From positions 3,968,001 to 4,032,000 of the forward strand of contig OZ017746.1 in the NCBI GenBank assembly GCA_963969365.1: DNA of 64,000 nucleotides. Direction: 5' to 3'. This DNA comes from Asterochloris sp. CNOR1. Its lineage: Eukaryota; Chlorophyta; Trebouxiophyceae; Trebouxiales; Trebouxiaceae. The notes beneath the pieces were generated by a model. It worked only from the letters and a program-made list of their open reading frames with translations, did not search any database and was not told the DNA's origin. This document shows positions 1 to 46,206 of this stretch, one piece after another; within the stretch, counting starts at the first letter, position 1; each line of letters opens with the position of its first letter. The position numbers were made by a program, and so were the translations under genes.

Positions 1-3000
1 TGTTGTTTGGATCAAGGAGCGCGAGTCCAAGCACAACCTCCAGGTTGTGCGCATGGGCGCTGCTGGCACTGTGACTGCCATGGAGCGGGCCATTGAGGCT
101 GGCCACTCAGTGCTCGTTGAAAACATGGGCGAGAGCATCGATGCTGTACTCAACCCTGTCATCACTCGTTCAACGTTCAAGAAGGTAGGGGCTGCAGCAC
201 TTTAGCAGGCAGCCTGCCGCAGTGAGCCCACTGCCTCGGCGTCGGCCAGCACACAACGTAGAGCCCGCACCATGTGCTGCACTGCAGCCCCACTTTGCAG
301 CAGATCATCCTGGGCACAAGCGCAGCTCGTTGGTGAAGCCTGACATGACAGCACAAACAATCTTGCAGACTGACAGCGCTTCTCCAGGTCTGGAAGTGGT
401 GACGTTGTGATGCTGTGCTGTGCAGGGGCGCAGCATGTTTGTGAAGCTGGGGGACAAGGATGTGGAGTACAACAAGAACTTCAAGCTGGTTCTGCACACC
501 AAGCTGAGCAACCCCCACTACCCGCCCGAGATCCAGGCTGAGACCACACTCATCAACTTCACTGTCACTGAGAGCGGGCTGGAGGACCAGCTGCTGGCCC
601 TGGTGGTCAACAAGGAGCGCCCTGACTTGGAGGAGACAAAGACACACCTCATCATTCAAAACACAGAGTTCACCATCAAGCTCAAGCAGGTGGGTCGAAG
701 TGTGGCCCAGCCATGAGCTGCAAGCAGTTTCAGGTAAAGTGTGCTGTGTCATTTTGAATCCTGAGTTCACCATGGACCTCAGAGCAAGCTTGGCCTGCCA
801 GCTCTGCCAGGCTGGGCCCCTAGCTGTGAGGCTCACAGATGCCGTACAGACCCCTGAGGTCAGGTGCCAGCCAACAGGGTACACACTTGACATTCCACAC
901 CCCTCACCTGCTATTGCCATTTTGCACAGCTTATGCAGCGTTGCCTGCCCGCAGCTTGAGGACGACCTGCTGTACAAGCTCAGCTCAGCAGAGGGCGACA
1001 TGACAGAGGATGTTGCCCTCATCGAGTCTCTGGAGGAGAGCAAGCGTGTGGCTGACGAGATCTCCCTCAAGGTGGCTGAGGCTAAGACCACTGAGGAACA
1101 GATCAACGAGGCCCGTGACAAGGTGACCTGCTTGCATGCATTATATTGTGTTGGTGCCTGCAGAAACCTGGAGCGCTTCAGCTTGTACCCTGGGGCCTGC
1201 TTGGTTGGAGCCATTGATACTTGCGCCAGTAGGAACCAGGCTTAAGCATGGTCATGCCTGGTCAGGACGGTGATCAAGTATCTTGGCATAGGGCAGCTTG
1301 CTGCCAGCAAATGCGCTGAGCATGGCATGCGTCCAGTGGTGTGACACAATTCGTGCACTGCATCTGGCCATGCCCCAGGCCTTACCTTTGCGCCCGTGTA
1401 ATCAGGCAGGCTTATTAGTAGGCTATCATCATCGGATTGCCATGAAAGGTCTGCTCCTCTGCCTCATGGGATGCTTGTTTAGGAAGTCATTGCCCTGCTG
1501 CAGTACCGCTCAGTGGCCGCTAGAGGAGCTATGCTCTTCTTCCTCCTCAACGGGCTCAACAAAATCCATGCCTTCTACCAGTACTCCCTCAATGCCTTTG
1601 TCACCGTCTTCTCGCGAGCCATTGACATTGCACCAGGTGAGCAATCATAGATGGCCAGCTGCGAGGGGCATGAACGTCTGCACTGCTGCTGCAGGCCTCC
1701 TGCCACCCCTGTCGCATGCTGAGACCGCTGTTTGAGCCCTCAACTTGCATGCAGGTGGGCGCAAGCAGAAGGCACCCAAGGTGACCCTTGAACAGCTGAC
1801 TCGACGCGTTACTGGCGAGCCCAAGGACTTCCAGGAGGTCATGGAGATGGCTCGGCGCAGCTCACAGGGAGGAGGAAGGTGCGATGGAACCCAAGACAAC
1901 AGCTGCATTTGACCACTCCACAGGCTGGCATCAAGACCTCGTGTGGTGGCATACGCCCAATATTCTGCAGCAAATGCACCTTGTGCGCCTGGCTGCCCAC
2001 CTGGCTGGGGAGCATGCATGGCAAGCAAATGCACCAGCAGGGCAGGTAGGCTGACGTCAATTGCTGTGTGCAGGACAAGCACGGCGGGGGCTGCTGCCTC
2101 GATGAGCCAGCCTGACCAGCCTGAGGCCATTCCTGAAGAAGAGGAAGTCAGTGGGGTGCCCACCCCAGAGCAGCTTGAGATCCGGCTGACCAATCTGCTG
2201 GAGACCTGCACCTATGTGGTCTTCAACTACACACGCAGGGGCCTATTCGACCGCGACAAGTTGATCGTACTGACCCTGCTGACCTTCCAAATCATGCTCA
2301 AGGTGGGAAAGCCATGAGTTGTCACTCTTTGCTGAGCTTTTCTGCGCTGCGGCCTTGCCTCCTTGCATGGCTGGGCTTTGCAATGCTGCCAATTTGCATC
2401 CTGCCATGGGCTTGTTGGTGCCGCTGATACAGGCGAGGGCAGGTTGTCTAATTGCCGTGCAGGAGCAGCAGATCAGTGCGGAGGAGTACGACGCCCTCTG
2501 CAAGGGCATGAGGGTGACCACGCCGCCACCCATCACAGATGATCTCAGCAGATGGATGAATGAAACGCAATGGGCAGCTCTGCAGCCGCTGACTCAGTTG
2601 CCTGTGAGCCTGACTGGTGCCTCTTCGTCTTGGGGTGCACAATGCTTGCAGCCTGCTTCCAAAGCAGCAGTCAGCTCAGGCAGCCATGCAGGGCCAGCAC
2701 AGCTCCACCTCCAGCATGACTGCAGCTCACAAACTGTGTGAAGCCCTAGGGGTACAGCCTGAGCTGCGTTCTGGTACCTTTGGCCATCCTGGCCTTGCCA
2801 GTCCATTGCATTCACTCTGCTCCCCTGAGGTGCATGCAGGCCTTTGCCACTCTTCCAAAAGATATCGAGAAGAACAGTGATGAGTGGGAGAGGTGGTGCA
2901 ACAATGAGGCCTCTGAGAAGGCCCCGATGCCAGGAGAGTGGAGCAAGATCAGCGACTTCAGGCAGCTGCTGATCGTGCGCGCCCTCAAGCCAGGGCGTAT

Positions 3001-6000
3001 CACAAATGCTCTCCAGGCAGGCGCCTGTACTGACATGCTGCCAGCAACAGCACCCTGTACTTGCGCCCCACTTGGCAGCATTGCGCCCCCACTGTTGTCT
3101 TCTGATCCCTCACTCAGAAACCTTTTCAGGCACCCGGCTCACGTCTCTGCCCCACTGCTGCAGAACTTCTGCGAGAAGAGGATGGGCAGCAGATATGTAA
3201 ACCAGGACGCCTTCAGCCCGCCTGTGGTCATGTCTGAAGCCAGCAGCAGCACGCCCATCTTCTTCATCCTGTTCCCAGGCTACTCCCCTAGCAAGGAGAT
3301 TGAGGCGTATGCTGCCACTGTTGGCAAGACGGTGGCCTCTGGCAACCTCACTCTGATCTCCATGGGGCAGGCAAGTCTGCCCTCAGCTCTCTGTGCCTGT
3401 TCGACGGGGCCTCACTCATGACCTGCACACCAGAGTTTCTCTATTTGTCAGGACTCAGAGCCACAATGAGCCTTGAGCAATTGCAGGTCTTGTGGTGTGT
3501 CAGCGCTGCCATTACAGCGCTGTCCCCAAGCCCAGCACTTCTGCTCCCGCCAGTTGTGGGCATGACAGACACCCTATCATCACAGGTTTCTGCCAGGTCC
3601 TCACGTCCAAAGGTAATGGCGTACCATCACTATATGACCGCCGTCATAATGCTTGCATGCAGGGCCAGGAGGGACCCGCAGAGGCTGTCCTGGACAAGTA
3701 CACCAAGGAGGGCGGCTGGGTCTTCTTGGACAATGTCCACCTCATGCAGGTGAGGCCTGCCCACAGTGAGCAGCAGCTGTGCTAAGCAGTCTTGGCAGCC
3801 TGGTCTCTGTGGTCCCTGCTTCCTGAGGCCCAGCTTCTCAGGCTTGCCCTTTTGTGTAGCGGCCTGTCCGCTGCATGCTGGCTGCCCAGTGCCCTCCAAC
3901 TGGACTGGGGTGTGCTGCAGGGCTGGATTCCCAACCTCGAGCGCAAGCTGGAGGTCGCTGCAGAGACAGCACATGCCGACTTCAGGTGTTTCTTTTCAGC
4001 AGAGCCAATCAACGGCGCGCCCCAGGTGAGCTTTGACACCCCACTGCTCTGCAAGACCTGGGCTGTATGGTTGCTGCCATCTGTGATCACTGATCCTGTG
4101 TGATAAGGCTCCCCCTGCTTCTGTCTGCAGGCCAAGATTGTTCCAGAATCCATCCTGCAAACCTGCATCAAGATCTCCAATGAACCACCCAGCGACATGA
4201 GGTCCAACATGCGCAGAGCATTTGCAGCGTTCAGTCCGGAAATGTGTGAGAGGTGTGCCACAGAGAGATGCACACAACAAGATGCTGCCAGAGCGCTTGT
4301 GCATGGCCAAGCATGCATCTTGCTTGCTTGCACAGCTGCACAGTGAGCCAGCCTTAAGCTGAAGTGAGGCCAAAACAGAGCACTATCACAAAGCTTGCCC
4401 ACCCTGCCACATGTGCTGCCACCTGCTGCAGGCCCAGCACACCTGGCAAGCAGACTGCTTTCAAGTCCATTCTTTTCGGCTTATGCTTCTACCACTCCCT
4501 GCTGCTGGGGCGCAAGAAATTCGGCACAGGCATTGGGTCGGGGGCAGGCAGCGGCCTGGGCTTCTGCCGCGGTTACTCCTTCAACATGGGTGACCTGACC
4601 ACCTGTGGGGATGTGCTGTTTAACTATTTGGAGGCCAATGAGGCTGTACCATGGGACGACCTGCGCTACATGTTTGGGGAGGTGTTCTATGGCGGCCACA
4701 TCACAGATGACATGGACAGGAGGTGGGGCCTGTGCCTTCTTTGTAGGCATGGCTGCCTTGGCTGGTAGCATCTTTGGCTCCAGCAGCAAGAGGTGCTGTT
4801 GCTACAGCACCTCTTGCTGCTTGCTCTCAGCTCAGAGAGCAGCATCAACTAGCAGCAGACTTTGTGCCGCGCCTGCTCAAGCTGGCAAGCTGACATGATG
4901 CTGGGAGGACAGCTCTTGGCATGAAGCGCCAGATCGCAGCCCTGCAGCACTGCTGCAGGTGCTGCACCACCTACCTGCAAGTCCTCATCAAGCCAGAGAT
5001 CATGCCCCAAGGCACCGAGCCACCCACCCTGCAGCTTGCCCCAGGCTTCAGAGCGCCCTTCCCCAAGGACTATGGCAGCATGAAGGAGTACATCGAGGCC
5101 TCGCTGCCAGCAGAGTCGCCCATCATGTATGGGATGCACCCCAACGCTGAGCTATCGCTGCTGACGTCCCAGGTGTGATGGCATGCTGCAGCAGCAATTA
5201 CGCGCCATCTCTGCATTGCGCGCAGCTACTGCAAGCTCAGGGCTCCATGTTGTGACAAGCTACACCAGGAGTGGGCGCTTGTCACGAGTTCATGTTTTCA
5301 ATGTGCCCCTTTCAACAGCTGCGGCAAAGCAACCTGCACACATGCTGCCTGCCCATTTCACACACTGCCTGGCCTGCAGGGCGAGACCCTGTTCCGCACC
5401 GTCATTGAGGTGACTGGCGGAGGTGGCAGCGGTGGCGGAGGAGGCAGCAGTGAGGCTGCTGTGCGGGCAGCTTTGGAGGACTACAAGGCTCGCCTGCCAG
5501 AGGAGATCAACATGGTGGAGGTGTGCCATGCATGCCTGGCCGCGATGCAGAGATGGAGCTCACTGCACCTCCGTCAGCCTGAAGTTTTGCTTGCTGCTGT
5601 GTGTTTTGACACTTGACCCTGCCATCTGCTGCAGGCTCTCTGTTGCATCCCTTTAGCCATCACAAAGCAGGCGCTAGCCTTGCTCTTGCAGACAGTCCAC
5701 TGTGTCTGCTGCACAGATTCACTGCTGTCGAGAGTGTACAGCACATAGAACCCCATGCCAGGCTGTGATGCTTTACATGGGTGCTCTGGCCATGCTGGCC
5801 ACACTTGGCTTTACTAGCTGCTGCACTGCAGGTGGCGGCGTGGGATCCATGTCTGTCTGGACATCACTATGCTGCCTGAGAAACACGCATCAGCATCTGG
5901 AAGCTTTGCACCGCAGGTGGAGGCACGTGTGCGTGAAAAGACGCCCTACGTGGTGGTAGCCCTCCAGGAGGCTGTGCGCATGAACACTCTGCTGGAGGAG

Positions 6001-7717
6001 ATGCGGCGCAGCATGGAGGAGCTGCTTCTGGGCCTGGATGGAGCGCTCAATATGAGCGACAAGATGGAGAAGCTGGCTGTGGGGATTGCAACCAACAGCG
6101 TGCCTGCGCTGTGGATGGCCCAAGTGTCCACACGGTACCAGGAGGTGTACACGCTCAGCTCATGGTATCAGGTGATCAGATTGGCAGAGTGCTTTGAGGA
6201 CTGTATGATCACACTGACTGTGTGATGGGTCGGCAGGGAGTACATGCTCAGCGCTTGGAGCCCACGTGGGTGGGGGGCAGAGTGCTTGGGGGTCTTTAGA
6301 GCAGCTGTGTGGTAGTGAGTGGCCACAGACTGTGGTGTGTATCTGTCAGTGGGTGGCACCAGGTGAGTGGTCAGAGGGAGCTCAACTGCTTTGAGGGTCC
6401 GTGGGTACTGAAGCACACCCTGCAGCACAAAAAATATGGATGCCAGGAGGCTGGGCTCTGATTGATGTTGATGCTAAGGAGCACTGTGGTGGCACAGCCT
6501 GCCTGGGTGCTAATTTAGTGCATGACTGATATGAGCATGTCTGCAGCATGGTGTGGAGCATGTCTGTAGGACGGCAGAGGGAGTGCTGATCGTCAGCCTG
6601 AAGGTCGGATCTGGGCTGGCAGGTTTATCAGCACCTCCATTGCACCTGCCTTCTGGGCTGCTGACCAGCAGAGGCTCCTGAAGTGTGAGCAACGCTGATC
6701 GAGCACATCGCCCGAACTGCAGGACGTCTTGAAGCGTCATGAGCAGCTTAGGGCATGGACTGGTGGCGACATCTCCACGCCCAACTCTGTCTGGCTGCCA
6801 GGCCTTTTCAATCCAAAGGTGGGCACCCTTGCTGTCAAAGTGGGGTCAGGCTGCCTGCCTCAGCTCAGAGGCTGACATTTGACGCTGACAGCACAGCATG
6901 ACCAAGCGCTGCAGAGCAGTGCATTGCTGCCATTCTTGTGGGGTTCGGGATATGAGCTGCAGGACTGGAGGGCACCCTTGGCAGCTGTGAGTGCCCCGAC
7001 CATGCCTTCCAAGTGATGCTGCCTCTCCATGCCTGCAGGCTTTCCTGACGGCCGTCATGCAGACATATGCCCGCCAGCACAAGCTGCCTTTGGATGTCAT
7101 GAAGTTCAGGACTGACATCACTACAAAGTCAGTCGAGCAGATATCTGAGCCTGCACCAGTGGGCTGCTATATCCACGGTGAGACCCACAGGAGGCAAACT
7201 CTGTTGCGATTGCAGCCCCCTACCAGATGCTGTTGATCCCTCTGGAAGTGCCGATTTCCAGCCGCTGCACACCAAGTCCTGTCCAGCGGTTTGGTGACAA
7301 GCTGCAGCGGCTGACCTCCCCTCTGCCGCCCGTGCAGGTCTGTGTCTTGAGGGTGCCAGATGGGACAAGGAGGATAGCTGCCTCAAGGACTCTCTGCCCA
7401 ACGAGCTCCATCCTGCACTGCCAGTTGTCCAGGTGGGCCGTCCAAAGCATTGCAAGGCAGAGCATTGGGCCATTCTTGAAGCCCAGGAGGGTCGCAATCT
7501 CTTCCCCTGACAATGCCATGTCATGCTGCAGGTGGTGCCAGTTACAGTGGACCAGTATAGCTTGCAGGGGTACTACGCTTGCCCTGTGTACACCAACATG
7601 CAGCGGGCGAATGTATACTCGCCAATTGTTAGTATGTTCACACTAAAGACTGAGGACCCCGCTCACAAATGGGTTCTGGCCTCAGTGGCTGTCCTGCTCC
7701 AGGATGAGCTTGCTTGA
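1..7717 (+). CDS. Outer-arm axonemal dynein heavy chain, C-terminal part (5' end outside window)
   Basis: This is the motor subunit of a ciliary outer dynein arm, an ATP-driven microtubule motor. The window opens inside the AAA5 region and runs through AAA6 and the C-terminal domain to a TGA at 7715-7717. Exons I could read include 1-184, 426-689 (with LINFTVT), 955-1122, 1483-1636, about 2073-2301, from 2463, from 2839, about 3165-3369, 3661-3748 (with VFLDNVHLM), 3922-4025, about 4440-4722 (with [13 protein letters not shown]), about 4979-5173, 5381-5520, about 5912-6170, 6723-6819, about 7040-7180, 7339-7431 and about 7532-7717. The wording resembles the alpha/beta outer-arm class (DNAH9/11/17-like) more than gamma/DNAH5; that subclass is my inference from remembered family features. 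The first two-thirds of the protein (tail, linker, AAA1-4) lies upstream. A glycine-serine stretch sits at about 5410-5452. Its 3' end converges on the RimO gene. Confidence 0.93.
5410..5452 (+). other. Gly/Ser linker inside the dynein heavy chain
   Basis: Within the exon after [11 protein letters not shown] the codons read [15 protein letters not shown]. The glycine codons are mixed (GGA, GGT, GGC), so this is not a simple DNA microsatellite. It falls between the GETLFRT motif and the LPEEINM motif, a stretch known to vary in length among dyneins. Confidence 0.8.
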
Positions 7718-22200: not shown

Positions 22201-25200
22201 AGTGTTGCTGTTCGCTGCTGCTGTGCCTGGAGGAGCCAGCCAGACACCAGCTCACACAGTCAGTGGCCACACAGTTGCTCCAGATGGTCAGCTGCTCCAT
22301 CTTCTGGGCTTGCTAAGCTGCCTGCAGCCCTGATACTGCTGGGGTTAGCTTCACAGCAGCAGCAGCAGGAGCCATTTGCAGGACAAGCTCTATCGAATGC
22401 TGCCCCAGCCTACTGCAGGGAACGCGGTGTGCAGCCCTTATGCTCAGAGGCTGCACAATAAAAGCGGTGTAGTCGCTGTTTGGGGGGGTGCCGCGTAATC
22501 GGCCATTCTGGCCGCACTGCCGGCACCCATCCTGCTTCCGGGGCCGGGCTGCTGGGCTTCACTGTCTGGCACCCAGAAGTGGCAAGGTTACTGTAAAGTA
22601 CTCAGAGTACTTGAAAAGCACCCTTACGTTCAAGGGGTACTGCATGACTTGCCTGCAGGGAGGCTGCCAGGCGCGCAGGCGACTGGATCAACCGCTGCGC
22701 CCGTGCCAGGCAGCAGCGCCCTGCACAGCCCCTATGCTCGCTCGCTCTCGGAAGCCAAGGCCCCCAGGGGGGGGCGGTCGGCCATCATGCGCTCCCCCCG
22801 CAGCAGCGATGGGCCCTCACAAATCCTGGCAGACCCCAAAACGCAGCCTGCAGGCAAGACCGATGCTTCTGGCCATGGACCGACATGCATCTGGCAGCTC
22901 TGACTGGAGGCCATGGCAGCCCTGTGCTGCAAATTACACATGAAACTGGCCAGACATGAGGTCAATGTCAATCCGGGCTGCTGAAGGCAGGTTTTTGGTG
23001 CTGTCCTGGGCTCCTCTGTCTGCCCTTTTCAAGGCTGAACAATTCAGTACAAACTGGGGCCCCTGAGACTGGCCGGCAGCCCTGCAGAGCTGGGGCTGCA
23101 GCTGTCTTCCCTACGCGCCCCACTGCCGCAAAGACCTGCCACTCGACTCACGCATAGGAGCCAGAGCCTGCTGCCTGCAGATGCCGCACAGCCAAGAGCA
23201 GCAGGGAGGGAGCATCCTGGTGACTTGCGACAGCCTGTGCTGGCAGATGCTGTCAATCAGCAGCAGCAAGGGCACCACTCCACTCACACCTGACAGCTGG
23301 TGCTTGCTGGCCACAGGTGATCAATCCCCAGCAGCGGCAGCGGGGCAACGGGAGCTGTCCAGCAGGTTGCTCAGCCGGGATGGCAGCTCGGCGACTGGGT
23401 CCTCATTTGCCAGGGCGGCTCAGGTGGCTGCGGCTGCACAGCAGCCGCCAGCTGAGCCAGCGCCAACCCCGCAACAGCAGCCTTCTGGGCCCACTGGCTC
23501 GGCAGGAGTGCCTGCCGCTGACGTGGCACCTGCGCAGGGCCCCACCGACGGAAAGGCGCAGCATGGCCGGCAGTCCTCTTTTCGGCGCCTGCTGAGCAGT
23601 TTGAAGCGGCACAGCCACACTGGGGGGCCCCAGCAGGTGCAAGATGGAGGCGCTGGAACTGGCGCCAGCGCTGCACACAGAGCCCGTTTCTCAGCTGATG
23701 GGAGCTCCCACAGTCTGCCTCAGCAGCCGCGAGGGAGGGCGGTCCACCGGAGGACCTCCAGCCTGCAGCGGAGAGTGGACAGAATCCTGGACGGGCTGCT
23801 GCGTGATGCAGAGCAGCACCCACAGGAGGCCCCGCTGCAGGGGGCACAGGGGATGGGCCCCCATCGCAGAACATCCAGCCTGCGGCGGCTGGAGGCTGAT
23901 GCAGTCCTGGATGGGCTGCTGTCAGATGTGGAGCAGGTGGCCCAGCAGGCCCCTCTGCAGGCTGCACAGGGGAGGCCTGCCGGCAGCAGGGCCGTCAGTC
24001 TGCAGCGGCGGGATGCGGATGCAGTCCTGGAGGGGTTGCTGCAGAGCGTGCAGGAGGCAGAGGCAGCTGCAACAGCCCACCTGGCCACCATCCCTGAGGA
24101 GCCTGCCCCCAACCCTTCGGGCAGCAGCAGCACGCGTGCCCTTCTGCCGCAGCAGGACACTGAGGCTGGCCGCCCTGCTGGCAACAGGGCCGCCAGCAGG
24201 AGTGTCACCCTGCAGCAGCGGGACGCCGATGCAGTGCTGGATGGGCTGCTGCAGGCCCTGCAGGAGGCAGAGGCGGCTGCTGCCAAGCACCTAGCCCTCA
24301 GTCGCAGCGCCAGCTTGCGAGCTGCCCAGCCTGGGAGCGCTGCACCCCGCCCTGCAGGCCGCAGAAGCGTCAGCCTGCAGCTGCGAGAGGCAGACGAGGT
24401 GCTGGAGGGGCTGCTGCAGAATCTGCAGGAGGCCCAGGCGGCGGCTGTTGCTCACATTGCCACGAGCGATGAGTCCAGAATCCGCAAGAGAGAGAGCCAG
24501 GCTGGGGGGTGAGCTTCTGGGAAGATGTTGCGCAATGCAGCGACTTCTCCGGCAGAACAGGGTTGCCCAACTTGCCGCCGTCAGTGCTGCCTGCATGCGT
24601 CACGGGAGCTGGGGCTGGGCATTGGTGCTGTGACGCAGTTGACAGCAGATTCAAGTGTTGCGCTGCATTTTGAAGTGACAGCAGCTGCCGGTCTCGCCAT
24701 CAGCATACAAGCCCAAAGGGCAAGTTTGAGCCAGGCTTTTCTAGGCAGGGCAATGGCTGCTGAGAGCAATACAGCCAGGCAGCAGGCCACGCGGGGATCT
24801 GCTGAAGCTGAATCAAGACTGTCTGGTGGCGACTCCATGGCCAGCATATGTGCGCCCAAAGGCACAGCATCAACACAGGCTGTGTCACCATCTACTTTCA
24901 ACACCTGTGCAGCAATCTTGCTCCTATTCCTGCAGGCAGCCCTCAGGTGGCGAGTCCCGGCCTGGCTGGCGCCGCACAGTCAGTCTGCAGCAGCGGGATG
25001 CTGATGCAGTGCTGGAGGGGCTGCTGGAGAGCGTGCAGGAGGCAGAGGCAGTCGCTGCAGCTGCTCTGGCTGCCGAGCGGGACGCGGCTGCAGTCCGCAG
25101 GGCCGCCAGCATGCAGCGGCGGGACGCGGATGGAGTGTTGGAGGGGCTGCTGCAGAGTGTGCAGGAGGCTGAGGCGGCGGCCCTGGCCTACATAGCAGCT

Positions 25201-28200
25201 GCCAGCAGCCCCAGCCTGCAAACGCAGGAAGCAGAGGCCGTGCTTCAGGAGCTGCTGCAGGCTTCGGAATCTCCAGAGGCTGCCCCGCCCCCAGCCCTGC
25301 AGCTGGAGCATGAGCCGGCGGCACCTGTTGGCCCAGAGAACATCGATGAGCAGGAGGTGGATGCAGGCAGCTCTGCAGACGGCGTCCAGGCAGACAAGGA
25401 GCAGGCAGAGGCAGCTGAAGGGTGGCTGGAGTCCCAGTACGAAAACGATGCCTTTGAGGATGAGCAGGCTGCATCTGACTACTTCCAGGACAAGTTCGAG
25501 GAATTGCCTCAGGGTGAGCCTGCCTCCCTGTTGACCCTGACCATGTGGGGCATGGTCAATGCAGGTGGTGCTTGTCCCGAGGCAAGATTACTTGCATTTT
25601 AGCACCAGGCTGAGGGCTACTGCCTCCCCTTTCACCCTGATCCTGTCGGGAATGATTCTGTATGTCAACCAAGGTGGTGCTTGCCCCAGGACAGAGGCGC
25701 TTGCAATTCAGCACTAGGCTGAGGGATACTACCTCTGGGCAGAGCACGGTGGACTCTGGCAACTGCTTGACTGACAGGAGCTGGGCAATGCATGCTGCCT
25801 CAAGGTGAACACCACTGGCAACTCTCGGGGGCTGCCTTGTGGTGGAGCACCTTGGCCTGCAGCCTGTGGCTGAGTGACATGGGGCTGCTCCGGCAGTCCA
25901 TGTGAAGCCTCTGACTCAGCAAGTCACTTGGCGGCTTCTAACAGACCAGTATGGGATGGGGTTCCCCCAGGCATCTCTGCTCCAGCCTCTTGTGCCCCAC
26001 AAGCATTCAAGCTGAGGTGCAGTGCACCCTTCTGGTGCAGTCGCACCGCTGGAGCACGATGCTGCACCAGCACAGGCTGCAGAGGGCGGGCCAGCTCAGG
26101 AGGATGGTACAGAGGCCTCGGAGGCGCCAGCACCTGCACCTGCAGAGGAGCCTGTCCTGGCAGCAGAGGAGCCTGCAGAGGTGTCAGCTGAAGAGTCAGC
26201 AGCGCAGGTGGTGACGACTCCCAGCACAGCGTCTTGCCCCAGTCCCAGGCTCAGTGCTGGCAGTGCAAAGGCACTGCTGCCTTCCCCACCCCCCGGCAAG
26301 CAGCGACAGCATGTGCAGCAGCACGTGAGGCAGCCGGTGAGAATGTTGGGCGTGCCATATGACCCCGCTGGCCTGAAGTGTGGTCAACCTTGGTACACCC
26401 ACAGGTTCCAAATAGGACAGCCCCCTGCAGCCCTGCCTTGTGCAGGAGGCAGTGAGACCTGACACTCAAGTGCACACCCGAGGCGCTGCTGGCTGTCATG
26501 AGCACTGGCCATGACCACCAGCCGTGCTTGTTCACCTCCTAGGCCAAGCGACGTCCCCCACAGAGTCGCTGGACGTGCAGCTGCTCAACAAGGGGCTGCG
26601 GTGGAGGTGACATGGGTGCAGTGGAGGTGACAGGGCTGGTTCTTGATAGCCAAGCTCATGCGGGGCTGTCCCTGTGCAGGCTCGCATAGTGAGGCGCCCC
26701 AAAGCGTCGCCAAGCCTCCCACGGATCAGTCGGTCTCAGAGGGCAATCGATCACCCTGGGGTTCAGGTGAGACACCTCTGCGATCTCTGCCCTGCAGCCA
26801 CTGGCGAGGATAGCACCTCCCCTGCCTTGCAGCAGGGGATTGAGGAAACCACCTCTGCTGCTCTGTGTATCGGCGCGCACTTACCGTTATGCAGATAGGT
26901 GCCCGGCTTAAGCACATTACGGGAGGGGGCAGTCTTGCTCAGCAAGTATGAGGCTGGCAACGGGTGGTCTTGCTGAAGTCTGTGGTGGTGCTGCAGACGG
27001 CACAAGAGGGCAGCCGCCCGAACCGGAGGAGGAGGGAGCACCTGCGCCTGGATGTCGTGACTCATCTGGAGTATGACATCATGCAGTGCCTGGTCAAGGA
27101 CCGGCCGCAGGTGAGCCATTGACAACAGCACAATGGAGTGCCCATGCAGCTGAAGATGCAGCTGGACAGCCTTAGCAACCGCCGAAGGTGTTTGTCCACT
27201 GAAGGCGAGGCCTTTCTGTACCTGTCAGCACCTGACTGTCCCCCGAGCTGCCAGGCTCAAAAGGTTGTCCATGATGATGCTCTGCCAGCGAATGACTCCC
27301 ATTATTGCCCATGAGCGTCTACAACTATCTTTGACTCTTGTGAGACTGAGCCTGTGCATGTCATGCCTTCTGCAGCACCTGGGCTGGCTGCTCTGCAAGG
27401 CTGAGTGGATGGGGGTGCCCAGCACCAATCCTGCCGTGGGGGCGGCCTTCACAATCTGTGAGCTGCAGCGTCGGGCCACCTCCCCCAGGAGCAGGCCAGA
27501 GACCCACCAGTGAGGCACCCTTTTCTGTTTTTACAGCAGCCTTTTTTCTTGCTTCGCTGCTGCTGAACGCCGGAGTCAGCAGCCAGACCTGTGACACCAG
27601 AGCCCCAGTCCCTTTCTTGCATGGTTACCGCTAGATGCCAGACTCAGTAGCCAGACCTGTGAGACCAGACGGGCCCTCCAACCACCGTCAACATGCGGTT
27701 GTGATGTAGTGCAGCTGCAGAATGTGTTGTGTATTGGCTGATGTTACGGGCGGGACACATTGCTGCCTTGTGGCACAGGTATCCGTAGGTGATGGTGCGT
27801 GATGGAACTGCTATGGCAGTTGTCATCTATCAGCACAACACATGTCATGCAACAGCCCCTCACCCCACCACTCCCGCCTGAAGGGGCTGTACAGCCCAGT
27901 GCATCTTGGCTCACGGCAGTCCCCCAGATATGCTGATCCTTGTGCCAGCAGCGAACCAACCTCATATGACCTGATGGCCCCCTGCAGTCCCGGCACCAAG
28001 CATCCGTGTGCACCATCCTATTGCAGGCCTGCAGAAGGAATATGCCGAGTGCGCCACTTCACGTCTGCTTATGCGTGTGCCTGCAGTGAGCCCCAGGCGT
28101 TGCAGAACTCCCTGACGGGAGTGCTGAGGCTGTGCCCCAAGCTGGGCATCCTGCCAGGGGTCGTGACTGCCAGCCCAGCCTTCCTGGCTGCCTCCCGCGC

Positions 28201-37300: not shown

Positions 37301-39747
37301 GCAGAGCCTCACATGACACCATGCATGTGCAACCTTGGCAGCATCAACAGTGCTGGCAGGGATGTCATTGCATGCACGCCACGCAGTTTGACAAACAAAA
37401 CAGTGTCTCACTTGCAGCATCTTCCAGCCCGGCTCATGCGGGTGCTCGATTTCAAGGGCAAGATATCCTGGTGTGGGCTTGAGCGGCTCCACGTTCTTTG
37501 CATACTTCTTCAAGCTCTTCCGCAGTCCCTGCAGCGTCACCAAACGAGGTCAGACAGCCTGCTGCAACTCCTGCTGAAGCTGCCGTCATACTGGGGCTAA
37601 TACAGTGCTAACAATGAGCTGCTGGGCACCAGTGTGTAACTCTCTGCACTTTTGACTAAGGCAGGCATGCCCTGGCAAGTACCCAGCCATGCAATAAGGC
37701 AGCCTCTCTGCTGCTCCGTTCCGCAAGCGTGGTGAGACTGTCTCTCCATACCCAGCAGATGGCTGGGCGCATGAGCTTAGCCACTCAGATCTAGCTCATC
37801 AGCATATCAAGGCCCCAGGAGGCCCCTGGGCCCCAAAGGCACAGCCTGTCATGGTGACGGGAACAGCATTGCTGCCTGTTCACATTGCCCGCTGCGTCAT
37901 GGGCTCACCCGCATGTTGAGACTGACGAAGCCCAGGAGGTGGCAGATCTCCTGCGCCAGGTCCCTCAGCCTATGGATGCGCTGGTCAATCTGCTGCAGAC
38001 TGCTGCGCACAGCCGCCTGGTCTGCCTGCATGTCAGGGCGGTCTACAGTGACATCCGGACCCGCAGCAGATCTGCTGTGCATTGATGTGCTCAGCCGCCT
38101 GGCCTGCCTGCACCGCAGGGCGGAGCAGAGTGATGCTGGCACGACAGCAGAAATGCTGGACGCTGTCTCCTGCTCTGCCTGCATCACAAGGCAGGGTGCA
38201 GTGACGTCCAGCATCTGCATCACAAGCCGGTGTACAGTGACACTCAGCACCACAGTAGACCTGCAGCAGCCTGCTGTGCCCCAGCCGCCTGGTCTGCCTG
38301 CATCATGAGGCGGAGCACAATGACGTCCAGGCCCACAGCAGGTGCATGCGCCAGGTCCCTCAGCCTCTGAAGGCGCTGCTCACTTTGTTGGACACCGCTG
38401 CACAGGGCTGCCTGCTGTACCTGCACAATCCAATGGGGTGGCTGGTCCACATCACCACTGAGCCAGAGGCTCGTCCCCATGCAGCTGCCGCAAGCTTTGA
38501 GTGGATGTTGCATCCCCCTCTGAAAGTGTTGCAATACTGAGCGACAGACCGGCCACCACGCTTGGCATGAAATGTCCAGCAGGACACTGGCTTGCGTGCA
38601 TGGCAGCGCATGCAGCAGCACAACCATCTCCAAAAGTCTCATGCCATGCAGCAGTGCATGAGAAGTGCTGCTTCCTTGAAGCCAAAGTGTACACCATGCG
38701 GCAGGTCAACAGACGGTAGCATGCACCAGTTTGAAGCTGCCAGCTGAGACCACCTGATGCCATGCAGCAGCCGCATGCTGCATTGCCAAGCATGTGCAAT
38801 CAGCCCAGTCAGAGACTCACGACCTGCAGGAGCTGCATGGCGCCTGCAGCAGTGCCCATATTGTATGAATGAGCACCTGCTCATCCTCAATACTCTGCCC
38901 TGGCTTCAGCTGAGGCAGCTCCCGCTCCAGATCCCTCAACTCCTTTTCTATGTCAGCAGCCTTCTCCCCATAGAAGGCCAGCACCTTTTGCAGCTCGCCA
39001 TCTAGGGTGCCTGCCGTGGGTGAAGGTGGAATTTGGGTGGCAAAGCACAGCTGGCCGCAAACTGCTGCTGTTGCAGTGCAGGCCATGACTGTAGCAGCAA
39101 AGAGCAGGCAGGCTTATACGGCTGGCTGTGAGGTGGTTGTACGAGGCAGAAGCAATACCTATGCCGGGACTCAGCATGGGCACAGGACTTCCACTGCTTT
39201 TGCAGTGACCAGCCTCGCGGCCCTGACATGTCAGAGCTCAGCCAGCCCTGCACGTACCTGAGTATATGTATTTTTTGGCCACATACACCTGCAGCTCACA
39301 GCAACAGAAATTCAGGATCAGTCAGCCTGAAGCAGGACCTGTGGATCGCGCACGCTGCAGGGCCAGCATGCATCACACCAGCCTGTCAGTCACCTCTTCA
39401 AGTTCAGGCCTGTCCTTCAGCTCAATCATCTCCTTCACCAGAAGCTTTAGCTTCGCATAGTCCTGCAAGGCAACTAGGGCAGGAATAGAGCATGGCATAG
39501 GGGTGACGCAGACCACTGGGTCTCGCTACGGGGCACACAAGACAACATCAGGCTTGGCAGTGAGTGATGGATGCACTGCTTCCAGGCACAGCAGACAGCA
39601 TCCACAATGGCGGCAAAGGGGCTTGCATTGCAACTCTCATCATGTCAGGACATTGCTGCCAGGCACAGGAGCATCGTTACTTGCCAGATAGTATTCTTGC
39701 CATTCCATGTGCTGATCATGTCTGATCGTGTGCCCAAAGCGCACCAT
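31331..39747 (-). CDS. SPX-MFS vacuolar phosphate transporter (PHT5/VPT type)
   Basis: An N-terminal SPX domain senses inositol pyrophosphates and a major-facilitator domain moves phosphate, typically into the vacuole. ATG at 39747 starts MVRFGHTIRHDQHMEWQEYY (exon 39685-39747). It joins through a GC-AG intron to DYAKLKLLVKEMIELKDRP (39394-39462), then VYVAKKYIYSG and GELQKVLAFYGEKAADIEK (about 38860-39007). The SPX lysine cluster is in GLRKSLKKYAKN (about 37500-37540), after GFVSLNMR. After a linker come the membrane exons: YLFYIGSGASVAGLVIGCSD (about 35290-35410), FWILLLARLITGFG (about 34770-34910), RYIADFTPKAQRTKASAG (about 34290-34325, a family signature), GAWVMSAIWVVFLTITLICF (about 33700), FTSRLYGWTAGEAGLLLAAF (about 32640-32730), SALFLTIVACAMCFC (about 31950) and the last exon ending KRLAC (stop near 31331). 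It has 14 or more exons. Confidence 0.9.
32520..32740 (-). repeat. Membrane exon and its decayed intronic copy, offset about 104 bp
   Basis: Plus-strand caggcggctagtgaacaggg at 32588 copies caggcggctggtgaagaggg at 32692, and the preceding gcagcaggcctcccctgcag resembles gcaggccagcctccccagca. The copy at 32692 encodes the transporter segment FTSRLYGWTAGEAG. The other reads FTSRLCRWTAGEAC, then loses the frame and lies in an intron. Confidence 0.8.
37920..38425 (-). repeat. Degenerate tandem copies derived from an SPX-domain exon
   Basis: The exon encoding RIHRLRDLAQEICHLLGFVS (about 37915-38020) is followed by intronic partial copies. gcgccaggtccctcagcct occurs at about 37956 and again at about 38347. 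Variants of gcctgcatgtcagggcggtc recur at about 38024, 38105, 38178, 38213 and 38299, each followed by an agtgac/agtgatgc/aatgac tail. Spacing is irregular (35-90 bp). Confidence 0.75.
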
Positions 39748-40299: not shown

Positions 40300-40560
40300 C
40301 ATGAAAGTGATGATATTGCCTCATGTTCACGCTCATTTGATCAATCTCCTGCAGGTCCATGAACACCTTGCAGGCCATATAGAGCCTTGCAATGTTTGGC
40401 TGCTGGTCCTGCATATGCTGCCCGCCATCTCCCGGCGCAGAGCCTGGGGTGCTCGATTTCAAGAGAGAGCAGCGGCACCGCCTGCTGCACTCTCAGCCAG
40501 CTCCTGAGGCTGCCACAGACCCTGCGCCGCAGCTCACCCTGCAGGAAAAGGTGCCTGCCA
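40300..40560 (-). pseudogene. Possible remnant of an SPX-domain duplicate upstream of the SPX-MFS gene
   Basis: Minus-strand translation gives LRRRVCGSLRSWLR, then LSLEIEHPR (about 40440-40545), then VFMDLQEIDQMSVNMR (about 40310-40365). These mirror GLRKSLKKYAKN...LALEIEHPHEPGW (37430-37540) and LAQEICHLLGFVSLNMR (about 37915-37965) of the neighbouring gene. The 16-mer ggtgctcgatttcaag is identical at 37441 and 40448. The copy lacks the SPX lysines and cannot be joined into an open gene. Confidence 0.45.
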
Positions 40561-40685
40561 GTGATGCACATGCGCAGCCATATTGGCACTGGGGTGGCTC
40601 GGATGATGTGCATGGGCCATATGCAGCATGGCTTGCAAATGCATGTGAGCCCCAGCTGAGGATACTTGCTCAGCGCAGAGCACTG

Positions 40686-43600
40686 ATGGTGACGCCGTTT
40701 CCAGCAGCTCTCCAGAACACTAAATATCCGCCTTGCGCCCTGCAGAGGATCCAGAGGTGCAAACAGAGCCTGCAGCTCAACAATGGGCGCCTGTACCTGA
40801 CAGGTGCACGGGGTGTTCGATCTCCAGACTGTAGCTCTGCACTCAATCAATCAAACATGCAGCAGAGGCCGCCTGCTTGTCAGCAAGGCAGACCATGTTG
40901 TCTACTTCTGAGAAGGCTTTCAGCAGACATGTTGTTGCCTGGGAACTGGCAGTGGAGCGACAGGTTTACTTTTACTTCCATTGCCTGCCATACTTTCCAC
41001 AGCCATAGACTCGGACCATTGCTGCTGGCCTGCAGGTGTCTTTGTGCGCGCCAATGCTGTGAATACCAACAAGCGGGTGTATCCAAAGGCAAGCTCGCTT
41101 CTGGCCTGTGGCTCTGCAGCTTCCAGTCTGAGGCAGCTGCCAGTCTGCAGACGACCCGCCTGGGCCGGCAGGGCCTGCATGCTTGGCGCTGCCTTGTTGG
41201 ATTTATGGCTTCAGGCCTACACTCTGCAAAAGGTGGCTTAGATGGTCACCTGCTGCACGTCTGCCGCCTCAGCACTTACAAGGCTGACAGTGAGGGTTGG
41301 CAATGCATGTCACCCAAGTGCAAGTTCTGTTCCTTGTCCACTGCAGGAGATCATAGCGGCAGAGGTCGCCAGGTTTTACCAAAAGCTGGTGGTGGAGGGC
41401 ACTGCCTTTGGAGAGCTGTGTCACCCGGGATACACCTGTGAGACATACAAGGAGCTGCACTTAGCAGCTGTCAGCCACCAGGCAAGCAGACGACTAACTC
41501 GCTCGGCATGTAGCTGAGAGTGGCTGATGTTTTGCCTGCCAAGGTGACGTTCTTGAATCTACAGCTGTCAGGTTGTCAGCCATCAGGCAAGCAGAACATG
41601 CGTGTGCACAGCACGTGGCATCGCGGTCACCCCACCTGACAGCAGTCAACCCCCAGGCAAGCCGCATCCAGCAGTGCAGTGCCTGCAAGTGACATGCTCA
41701 GAGCGGCTGCAGCGCCGCCAGCCAGTTTTGGCCTGCAGCTGTGCCCTTCTCAGGGCGCGAGTGTGGCACGCAGCGCACTCATCTCAGCCTGCGACAACTG
41801 CTGCCCTGTGATGCTGAATCGATCTGGCCGCGGGCATGTGCCTGTCCAAGGGCATGGCTGCAAGCTTGGATGCTATGCCCAGCATGCAAGGTGGTGCACT
41901 AGAGTGCCACTTAACTTGCTGGTCCCATTGAGAGTGCCTGCTGGCAGCTTGCGGCGAGCTGGCGGCATGGCGTTTGTTGATCTCGCTGGCCCTCAAGTAG
42001 CCACACCGTTGCTGTCTCAGAGTCCCGTTGAGTGGACAGGCGAGCAGCCGCATGCCGGTGGCAATTAGTGGGCTCAGCACACATCACAGTACATTGAGCT
42101 TGGCCAGCGTCCCTGCTCACCAGTAGTTGGCTCTGGTGGGCTGACAACAGGGTTCAGAGCCAAACCCTCCTGACCTTCTCATGCCCTTCTTAGCATGGCC
42201 TGCTCTTGGCAGGACAGGGGGACTGGCTGAGTTTGATGCAGTATGCTCAGAGCGCTCCAATGCCAGCACTGCATGCTGACTCCATGCTGATGACAAGCTG
42301 CACAATCATTCCTTCTGCCTCCTGTGGAGGCCACATCTGCAATGCCCTCAGCTGAGCCCTTTACCTGTCCTGCCTCCCTGCAGGTGCTGGCACTGTGGTG
42401 GGCTGACGATAAACTGCATGGGCTCCTGGAGATCCTTGACACGCGGGCAGGGCGCCTGGCCAGGCAGCTGTACCTGCAGGGGTACCTCTTTGGGGCCTCT
42501 TCGCGGGGCTGGTGCTCCCAGGGGGACAGCGGGGAGGGCGACTACAAAACAGTCATGGACGACCTGGAGCTACTCACGTGAGTGGGATGGGTGAAACACC
42601 TGGGGCGAGGGTGGGGCCTCCTGCCGCGTGCTGGACGCCTCAAGCCCCACTTGGAACATCTGCTGCCGATGCAAGGGAAATTGGACGCGCAGGCTATCAG
42701 CTTTGAGGAGGTGGTGGGTGGTCGCGCAGGGTAGCTTGGTGTTGTGAGCTACAGTGAGGGCTGATCTGAGAGATGGAGGGGGGCTTCTGCATATCCCGGG
42801 TGGTCTTGGCTGGTCTGCATGCTCCAGGGCTGGCTTGCCTGCTCACAAAGGGCGAGCGGAGCACATGCTGAGTACTGGAGCTTGCATACAGCACAGGGCT
42901 GCTCTTGCAACTGTAAGTCCTGAGCCTACTGCCCGCACTGCTGGCATGTGGGTGCAGCAGCCCCTCATCCCCTCCCCCCCAACCCATAGCACTGGCTGCC
43001 TGCGCCAAACCTGCCAGGCCAGACCCATCAGGCAAGTGCAGCGCCCACCTGGCTTAGCGTGGTGTTGTCCGTGCAGGTTTGACCTTGCCCCCTGTCCTGC
43101 CAACCACCTGTGGCTGTACCCTGTCGTGCGAGAATACAAGGAGACCCACCAGCGAGCCGATGCTGTGCTGCAGCGGGCGATGGAGGGCGACACAGGTGCG
43201 CTGAGAAGCAGGCTCAGGCTTGCGCTGAAATACCCTTCAAATCAGGGCCTGACGCGCCATGCCCAGGTCGACCACTTTGCAGCGCAGTCCTGTGGCCGCT
43301 GCATGTGTGCTGGTTGTCCGACCTGGCAAATATGGCGTCCAGGGAAAGCTCAGGGTAGGGTGGCCTGGCTGTGCAGTAGGGTGGCCTGGCTGTGCAGCAG
43401 GCAGGCAGGCTCAAAGTTGCAGCACAGACTGCCTCTATGGGTCTTTCCAGTTTAGCTGCATGAAGGAGGGCAGTTTTAGCGTAGGAGCCACCAACATACC
43501 CTGCCATCCTCTTAAAAAACCCTAATTCTGACCTGCAGGTGTGCTTCCGCTGTACCCTTGCCTAGATCCAGCCGCTCAGAGGGATGCCTGGTCCATCCGC

Positions 43601-46206
43601 CACCGCATGCAGAGGGACAGGCAGCCCGGCGGCGCTGCCTGCCGGCGGACCGCCTCGGCCACCGTCCTTGACACCTCTGCAGCGAGGGCGGCCCTGCAGT
43701 CCAACACAGCCACCATGTCGGCTGCTGCAGCGGCTGCAGGTACAAGCCTGCAGCAGGTGACCCCTGACAATGTTCTGTTTGTGTTCCTGCTCATGTCAGG
43801 ATCTTGGTATTGTGCTCACAGCTTGCACCTGCCCACTAAAGTTGGGATACACAATTCAGAGGAGCTTTTGCGTGTGACAAAGCTGTGCTGTTTCCAAGCA
43901 GCAGCCCTGGAGGAAAGCTTGCCAGGACGCAGCTAGGGCTTGGCAAGAATGTGTGACTCATGCAGAACATCAAAGTTTACCTCTGGTCTGATGCTGCAGC
44001 GCTGGAGGCTGCCAGCACCTGGCCAAGCGTGATGGCTGCACCAGAGCTGGTGTCTGATGCCCCAAAGCCTCTGTATTCAACAGGGCTGATTCTGGTTGCA
44101 GGCGGCTGCGCTGGAGCCTGCCCAGACATGGCCGGGTGAGTCAGCTACGCCAGAGCTCCTGGACGATGGCAGCAGCGGTCCTGCGAGCTATGGCCAGAGG
44201 GCGGCAGCTCTGCTGGACGGGCTGTCAGAGCTGCAGCCTGCCAGCAGTGGGGATCAGCATGCCAGCAATGATGTGAGGCCTGCACTGCCCTTCGCCTGCC
44301 CCACCCGAGGCCATCCCATGTGCAGCCCACTTCAGCGGATAGTCAGCAAATAATCAGCAAGCTGCTGGCTAGGTTTGCAACATATAGAGCAGCAGGGAAT
44401 CAAGGACTTGCAGCACCTGCATTTGCCATGTCGCTCAAATTGTGAGTGCAGTCTCTCCCAAGAACTGCAGCAACAGACTGCCTCACATCAGCCAGTCTGG
44501 CAGGGGGTGCCTCCCTTGTGCATGCGTCCCTTCTATAGAAAGCAGAAGGGCTGCAGAACATCCTGTGGTGGCCGGCTGCAGGCAATTGAGGAGCCGCTCG
44601 GCGCCAGCAGCAGATGCACGGCAGCAGGCCCGCATGTCTCACCTCAGCAGGAGCAGGGCAGCAGGGCTGCTGGCAGCCACGCTGCTGCGGCTGCTTGCCG
44701 AGCGCCATCCTTGCCGTCGCCTGCCGCTCTACAAGTGGAGGCCTCACCCAAGGCTGCTGGGCGGGGGTCTGCGCGGCGAGCGTCTGCCACCCTGCTGGAC
44801 GTGGACTCCCCTGATGAGCTGCCGCTGAGGCACCGCGTGGATCCTGTGACGTGAGCCCTTGCATGTGATTCAGGTCCCACCTCATATGAGTCTGGTGGGC
44901 TCTGCAGGGGGACCACAGGGTGCGCCTGGAGGGTTGCTGCGAGGGTATTGCGGGACTCTCTGGGGTGATCAGATGGTGTGCTTGGGTGCAACTGGTCATG
45001 CTGCGCACTTTGCACTGCTGGGGAGTAGACCCCCTGATCAGATGGCGCCGAGGCACGGGGCGCAGCCTGTGACATGGGTTGCGCACCTGTTTGGCATGTC
45101 ACACCACACTTGAGGTCGATGGCCCCTCCAGGGGCGTGCCTGGAGGGTCTCGACGACTGGTTGAGGCTGCAGCCCTCTCAAGGGGGTTCAAGGGCTGGAG
45201 GTTAGCTGGGGGTGGCTTGGCCTATCCCTGGGCATGTGGCACCTGTTGACGTCTGTTTGATTGCCTGAGGTGTTTTGGTGGCGATGAGGCACAGGGTGGG
45301 TGTCGTGATGCGAGCTGCCTAGTGTCATGCATCTGCAGAATGCTGTTCATCCAGCCCTGGAGCTTCCCTTCACTTGAAGCTTCCATCAAAAGTATGCTTC
45401 TGAGCAGGTGGGTGCAGGACCATGAAGGGCTGCTTGACCTGCATGTCTCCTGGGCTTATCGGCAACTGCCCATGCGCAGGTGTGCCGTCTGGCTGCAGGG
45501 ATGTCAGGAGCCGCCTGACGCGCATGGAGAAGATGCTGGACATGATGCAGCTGGGGGAGTTCAAGCTGCAGGAGGTCACGCGCAAGGTACGCTCAGTACT
45601 CCTGCCAGTGGGTGCAGCTGTAGGGAGGCATGCTGAGCTGCTGCACAGGACATCAACCAGAGGGACCTAGCCCCCTCAAAACCCTAAAAAATGCAGAACA
45701 CTCACGCTCTGAGTGCTGCCTCCTGCCTGCTTCATGGGACAGCCAGGCGCTGTGGCAGGTCCTCAAACCCTGTACTCACCTTTCCTAAGCACGGTACTTG
45801 AGGGTTCCAGCCTGCCTGCCGAAAGTCTACCACAACAACTAATTTTGCATATAATCATGTCAGGCCAGGACTCTGCCTGCAGGGCCTCAAGCACAGCCCC
45901 AGCCAGCAGGCAGTCCTGCAGGCGCTGACGAAGCAGGGCAGCCAGGGGGCCTTCGCAGGCAACCCGCCCAAGCCTGGCAGTGGCCACTGCCAGCATGCCA
46001 GCAGCGGCTCAATTGGGCCTCTTATGGATCTCTCCTCAGAGCAGGTCTCAGCTGACAACACCCCTCTGCTGTCTGCGGCGGCGGCGGTTGGGCTGCTGGA
46101 TGAGGAAGAGCTGAGGAGGGCAGCCCCAGTCAAGTCCATCCGCCAAAGCCTGAGCCACAGTGCTGCGCAGCAGCAGCAGGGGAAGGCAGAGCCGCTCAGC
46201 ATATGA
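40686..46206 (+). CDS. Prohead core protease (T4 gp21 / peptidase S77) homologue with C-terminal extension
   Basis: T4-type prohead proteases cleave scaffold and capsid proteins during phage head maturation. Exons 40686-40803, 41036-41088, 41347-41481, 42384-42577, 43077-43195 and 43539-43739 join in consistent phase (1, 0, 0, 2, 1, 1). Numbered from ATG 40686, the conserved core runs LNNGRLYLTGVF, NTNKRVYPKEII (about 50-60), FGELCHPG (His83), LALWWADDKLHG and LFGASSRGW (Ser141/142), a His/Ser pair spaced as in gp21. The core ends near YPVVREYKE. The tail (exons about 44102-44268, 44580-44850, 45490-45587, 45883-46206) is Ala/Ser-rich, has a short coiled coil (RLTRMEKMLDMMQLGEFKLQ) and ends EPLSI. 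Two introns (41089 and 41482) use GC donors (GCAAGC). The start and tail exons are less certain. No other viral gene lies nearby, so its present function is unknown. Confidence 0.82.
43990..44170 (+). repeat. 109-bp duplication in the tail of the protease homologue gene
   Basis: cgctggaggctgccagcacc at 44000 resembles cgctggagcctgcccagaca at 44109, with matching tails (caagcgtgatggctgcacca against gggtgagtcagctacgccag, then gagctggtgtctgatg against gagctcctggacgatg). In translation ALEAASTWPSVMAAPEL pairs with ALEPAQTWPGESATPEL. One or both may be coding. Confidence 0.75.

Follow-up and report, generated by a model that had tools for sequence, protein, structure and literature searches.

A probable domesticated phage-type head maturation protease in a spliced nuclear gene of the green alga Asterochloris

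We describe a gene in the nuclear genome of the green alga Asterochloris sp. CNOR1 that encodes a homologue of gp21, the prohead protease of phage T4. It lies in a 64,000-nucleotide stretch of contig OZ017746.1 (assembly GCA_963969365.1, positions 3,968,001 to 4,032,000, forward strand), which we call the window and whose numbering we use, and it comprises 11 exons and 10 introns (40392..46206, + strand; genomic span 5,815 bases; product 595 residues). With a probability of roughly 70%, we regard it as a domesticated phage-type head maturation protease, and its sequence suggests that the enzyme is probably active.

Family assignment and gene structure

The protein matches Peptidase_S77 (Pfam PF03420; expectation value (E) 9.4e-18, 64.8 bits against a cut-off of 27), the PHROG family phrog_207 (E 4.3e-30) and the T4 gp21 structure PDB 5jbl (E 3.3e-11). 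A first-pass annotation made from the letters had read it as a homologue of the T4-type (S77) prohead protease, encoded by a spliced gene in the nucleus of a green alga, and had set a significant S77 profile match as a test beforehand; these matches support that reading. Five other proteins in our searches exceed the PF03420 cut-off (P0001, P0006, P0007, P0008 and P0009). At E up to 10, Pfam listed only Peptidase_S77 and a chance GDH2_N match for the algal protein, with no match to the S21 (assemblin) profile, setting it apart from herpesvirus assemblin, whose third catalytic residue is His, unlike that of S77 enzymes.

The gp21-fold serine protease domain spans approximately residues 60-215 and holds a full His116-Ser174-Asp202 triad. 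We aligned 86 S77 proteins: 5 from the eukaryotic clade, 67 others from the profile search and 14 from named phages. The triad residues are invariant among them, as are Pro117 and Arg176 (86/86 each). Both positions of 5jbl that align with His116 and Ser174 carry Ala in that construct of T4 gp21, and SPN3US gp245, aligned to T4 gp21, has the triad H, S, D (PMC5694885). An AlphaFold model of the algal protein, built from an input alignment of 45 proteins, is likewise predicted to have the gp21 fold. Read from its sequence, the algal protein carries the domain and triad for gp21-type chemistry. The gene is laid out as follows.

40392..40550, + strand: exon 1, residues 1-53, protein start; Cys-rich N-terminus MFGCWSCICC (Cys 4, 7, 9, 10)
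40551-40745, + strand: intron 1
40746..40803, + strand: exon 2, where the protease domain begins (RIQRC...LYLTG)
41036..41088, + strand: exon 3, VFVRANAVNTNKRVYPK; GC donor at the next intron
41347..41481, + strand: exon 4, GELCHP with catalytic His116 and a clade-specific loop insertion; GC donor at the next intron
41422..41424, + strand: codon of catalytic His116, H in 86/86 S77 proteins and placed by the 5jbl alignment
42384..42577, + strand: exon 5, VLALWWADDKLHG...GASSRGW with catalytic Ser174
42498..42500, + strand: codon of catalytic Ser174, the first Ser of GASSRG, S in 86/86 and aligned to GVASRG of 5jbl
43077..43195, + strand: exon 6, FDLAPCPAN..., holding the third triad member, Asp202
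43081..43083, + strand: codon of Asp202, D in 86/86
43539..43756, + strand: exon 7, a GVLPLYPCLDPAAQRDA block resembling those of Myrmecia and Trebouxia, followed by low-complexity sequence
44102..44272, + strand: exon 8, C-terminal linker
44582..44850, + strand: exon 9, C-terminal linker; the acceptor of P0006 is later (44741)
45499..45586, + strand: exon 10, a DVRSRLTRMEKMLDMMQLGE helix with the Trebouxia counterpart DVQHRLQKTQKLLDVLQFGQ; helix predicted at 457-489
45883..46206, + strand: exon 11, tail VGLLDEEELRRAAPV, which resembles that of Trebouxia, then the TGA stop

The 11-exon translation is identical, letter for letter in direct comparison, to P0088, a protein on a single contig of 2,899 bases whose source tag, 'lgn', we take to mean Logan. 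Because this contig is so much shorter than the genomic span, it cannot contain the introns and is most likely an assembled transcript. It has all of the junctions, in agreement with the joining of exons proposed at first pass (no reads were mapped). That proposal comprised six exons within 40686-43739, which can indeed be joined into a continuous open frame that has the motifs in order, given one additional base at the exon 6/7 joint. Comparison with relatives shifted both ends of the gene outwards: the proposed start at 40686 falls in intron 1 and the protein begins at 40392, and the proposed end at 43739 stops short of the end of exon 7 at 43756, from which the gene runs on to 46206. The catalytic His and Ser had been picked correctly, although their numbering (His83 and Ser141/142) gives way to His116 and Ser174 in the full protein. 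Exon 1 keeps 50 of its 53 residues in the close relative P0005, whereas read-through of intron 1 (a chosen slice) keeps 28 of 56 aligned residues and gains gaps.

All 10 introns end in AG; the donor is GT in eight of them and GC in the two that follow exons 3 and 4. These GC-AG introns (41089-41346 and 41482-42383) both have the donor gcaagc. The Joint Genome Institute (JGI) Asterochloris model P0006 represents the same gene with the GC-AG boundaries unused, so that VYPK and VSHQ are lost (the VYPK of exon 3 is present in P0088 and missing from P0006). Given that this model uses neither, GC-AG introns may be commonly mispredicted in Asterochloris. Within intron 7, a stretch at 43999-44101 resembles the start of exon 8 by eye (LEAASTWPSVMAAPELVSDA against LEPAQTWPGESATPELLDDG) and is absent from P0088; it looks as if an exon had been duplicated.

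All 11 scored matches of P0088 in the 56.4-Mb genome (21 contigs) fall at this locus, so an intronless second copy is not a likely source of P0088. We rejected a processed pseudogene, given the single locus with introns. A Peptidase_S77 family search of the whole genome returned no match, although protein queries did find the gene, because each exon is read separately in that search and no single exon carries the whole domain.

Orthologues and descent

Orthologues, which the first-pass annotation had proposed seeking in algae, were found in Myrmecia bisecta (P0001, WJX72_005645; contig of 4.9 Mb), Trebouxia (P0007, ABBQ32_003456, contig of 0.68 Mb; P0008, FRX49_02074, contig of 3.2 Mb) and Asterochloris (P0006, Astpho2/1310); P0006 and P0008 lack pieces of the domain. 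A further protein, P0009, has 523 residues, sits on a 2,440-base metagenome contig and keeps the triad, and four fragments (P0002, P0004, P0005 and P0087) resemble close relatives. Scoring in the two protein profile searches was limited to the 8,000 candidates sharing most words.

We built a tree of 86 rows from 71 of the 86 proteins that the profile search had found (P0001 and P0007-P0076), P0088, standing for the gene itself, and 14 named phages; P0003-P0006 (fragments or near-copy), P0077-P0087 (weak or fragment) and P0002 were left out. The algal protein, its Myrmecia and two Trebouxia orthologues and P0009 form one clade with support 100/99 in this tree, in which the bootstrap had not settled. 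The same five-protein clade was recovered, with a Shimodaira–Hasegawa-like approximate likelihood-ratio test (SH-aLRT) value of 99, in a 140-row tree to which 54 loci from IMG/VR had been added. Very long branches in the larger tree include L079 (3.24), P0076 (2.43) and L077 (10), the last being an extracted frame without an S77 motif that is to be ignored. Between the catalytic His and the SHQ motif, all five eukaryotic proteins have a long loop that none of the 135 other rows shares; those rows include L077, not a usable S77 row.

Intron positions also bear on descent. P0008 lacks exactly 37 residues that P0007 has at the place of exons 2 and 3, which is best explained by a gene finder skipping two whole exons. 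Introns 1 and 3 would then occupy matching positions in Trebouxia, and at least Trebouxia thus probably shares introns with this gene. We infer that the gene was present in the common ancestor of these algae and has been retained since.

Compared with T4 gp21 (MEROPS S77, PF03420, PDB 5jbl), the algal gene differs in its nuclear location, its 10 introns and the lack of a visible head operon, and its protein adds an N-terminal Cys cluster, a five-residue insertion after the His and a C-terminal extension of ~380 residues. Two to four Cys lie within the first 12 residues of all five eukaryotic proteins, and the helix and tail of the C-terminal extension are similar between Asterochloris and Trebouxia. 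Outside the eukaryotic clade, the best scores went to short S77 proteins of uncultured origin (P0010, P0011, P0019 and P0024; 39-41% identity over 47-49% of the query). The best-ranked named row is Flavobacterium phage immuto (31%), which groups with P0010 (99/91). These short proteins and that of immuto have ~200 residues, no extension and the loop HPESSV-----VNL, in contrast to the eukaryotic HPSYxSxTFxxLH.

Genomic surroundings and rival explanations

Could the gene belong to a viral or phage integrant, or to an assembly chimera with viral DNA? Asterochloris glomerata does have a remnant of a large DNA virus of ~540 kb, but that remnant has a guanine plus cytosine (G+C) content of 49% and introns predicted in 36 of 462 genes (PMC6652019). 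Here, by contrast, the gene contains 10 introns, and 2-kb bins around it have 56-61% G+C, in line with the remainder of the window. Codon-usage scoring served only to help pick frames. We ran Pfam on 30 frames outside the gene, some of them overlapping; 23 had no match, and the seven that matched all lie left of the gene, none being viral. Above curated cut-offs were dynein heavy chain (best E 6.8e-31 and 5.3e-13) and DUF7135 (1.9e-8); below them were a further dynein region, Polyketide_cyc (3e-4) and SPX, the last being the nearest named neighbour:

38877..39017, - strand: upstream of the gene, weak SPX-domain match (E 2.7e-4, under the curated cut-off)

None of 10 frames near the gene had a PHROG match at E up to 0.01, and a head operon of portal, scaffold and core genes was not seen among them, whereas in most of the 14 phage loci that we fetched the neighbours of the protease are annotated as portal, core or scaffold. 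Across the genome, the T4 capsid (Gp23), portal (Portal_T4) and terminase (Terminase_6C) profiles found no match; the control worked for the terminase only, and absence is not shown for Gp23 and Portal_T4. A chimera, which the first-pass annotation had named as an outcome that would refute it, is also spoken against by the orthologues in other algae, whose contigs measure 4.9, 3.2 and 0.68 Mb. We rejected both a recent integrant and a chimera, and we regard either as very improbable.

It is more plausible, if still unlikely, that the domain arrived by way of a eukaryotic virus, mirusvirus-like or giant, with an S77 gene of its own. Asterochloris has received genes from large DNA viruses (PMC6652019), and the long eukaryotic stem leaves room for an unseen intermediate. 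An IMG/VR scan with a two-sequence alignment found no relative, however, and one with a five-sequence alignment found 54 loci, none of which had the loop insertion or fell within the eukaryotic clade; such scans look for short conserved stretches and may miss distant relatives. The named relatives are tailed phages, in a collection that holds phages only. The earlier suggestion of a mirusvirus-like or phage-like integrant therefore survives in part: the nearest relatives are indeed phage-type, but no viral gene appeared around the gene in the scanned flanking frames (a subset of the frames in the window, searched with no mirusvirus profile and in no mirusvirus-aimed search).

Slightly less probable again is a pseudo-protease without activity, whether retained for binding or scaffolding or decaying as a relic. 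GELCHP and DTRAG replace the GELDHP and DTPAG of most relatives, and the end branch of 0.59 is the longest among the eukaryotic proteins; yet the His, Ser, Asp and neighbouring Arg are unchanged in five of five eukaryotic proteins, exon residues are better kept than intron read-through, the 595-residue frame is intact and a transcript-like contig exists. An active protease with an antiviral role, cutting capsid or scaffold precursors of incoming HK97-type viruses and so spoiling their assembly, would fit the enzyme's ancestry, in which capsid and core proteins were the substrates (PMC9026906). We came across no HK97-type virus that infects these algae, no search having been aimed at one, and a membrane-held N-terminus does not demand such a role, which we consider improbable.

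Farther out in the window, exons of the dynein heavy chain (AAA_9, Dynein_C) lie at 417-6159. Vegetative cells of Asterochloris are non-motile, and the dynein is presumably there for zoospores. At 23067-25602 (+ strand), long reading frames of 481 and 285 residues contain repeats of the form RRxxSLQRRDADAVLEGLLQ...QEAEAAA, with a tandem repeat of period 120 at 23785-24045; the 285-residue frame, the second of the pair, has no Pfam match. Rfam and transfer RNA scans of the window returned nothing.

Proposed role and significance

Domestication of a phage-type protease could have proceeded as follows. A tailed phage, or an unseen virus with such a gene, would have passed the gene to one ancestor. 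Introns, a Cys-rich N-terminus and a long tail at the C-terminus would then have been added, and the usefulness of the enzyme would have kept the gene in place. In the mechanism that we consider most likely, the Cys-rich N-terminus would be S-acylated and anchor the enzyme to a membrane. Together with the tail, the N-terminal segment would hold the enzyme inactive or position it. In T4 gp21 that segment has such a part: the crystal shows a pre-active state with the N-terminus over the catalytic centre, indicating activation by self-cleavage (PMC9958956). Activation would perhaps occur by self-assembly and self-cleavage. The likeliest use of the active enzyme would then be limited proteolysis, by Ser-His-Asp catalysis, of a single host protein or a small number of them at a membrane. 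Capsid maturation is probably not its role, since we found no phage head partner. On balance, we lean narrowly towards a tailed-phage protease that is now a housekeeping or signalling enzyme, a membrane-held zymogen that would cut host proteins across lichen algae and perhaps one further lineage.

Several points weigh against domestication or against parts of this scheme. The agreement in fold is partly built in, S77 proteins being in AlphaFold's alignment, and the RNA origin of P0088 is deduced from the size of its contig. The gene groups with Myrmecia (94/28), whereas taxonomy would place it with Trebouxia; because branching order within the clade is unsettled, vertical descent rests on the shared introns and the loop. 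Given a long eukaryotic stem (0.78), an unsettled bootstrap and a midpoint root used for drawing only, the case for transfer from phage to alga depends on how broad the phage family is. The algal spread is a lower bound, other green algae not having been searched one by one. S-acylation and membrane attachment are a guess from the Cys content. T4 gp21 cleaves its substrates after L/I-X-E; even in T4, cleavage of gp21 by itself is described as a major gap in understanding (PMC9026906). In the algal protein, the tripeptide LQE at 50-52, immediately ahead of the domain, is a candidate for self-cleavage. Its counterpart is LQE or LPE in Trebouxia and LQQ in P0005, and there is none at that place in Myrmecia and P0009. 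With the site so unevenly kept, we hold the self-activation step lightly.

The orthologues are already public as predicted or hypothetical proteins with PF03420 precomputed, so the S77 match itself is visible to anyone looking. We found no paper on this gene or its domestication in open-licence literature, and a description elsewhere is possible. The available portions of PMC9026906, PMC5694885, PMC6652019, PMC11126685, PMC9958956 and PMC7411985 do not name the gene, and 'prohead' does not occur in those of the Asterochloris and lichen-alga genome papers (PMC6652019 and PMC11126685). As far as literature searches reach, this would be the first described eukaryotic cellular S77 enzyme.

The finding gives a concrete, testable protein in lichen-dwelling algae, among which Trebouxia has been called the most prevalent photobiont (PMC12712428). 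If the reading is true, it adds to the phage-derived enzymes kept by eukaryotes. To our knowledge, the list of such enzymes is short. Head maturation proteases are treated as virion-assembly enzymes, common to tailed phages and herpesviruses. A conserved, spliced and catalytically intact nuclear copy would show that an enzyme of this kind can move from building virions to serving the cell.

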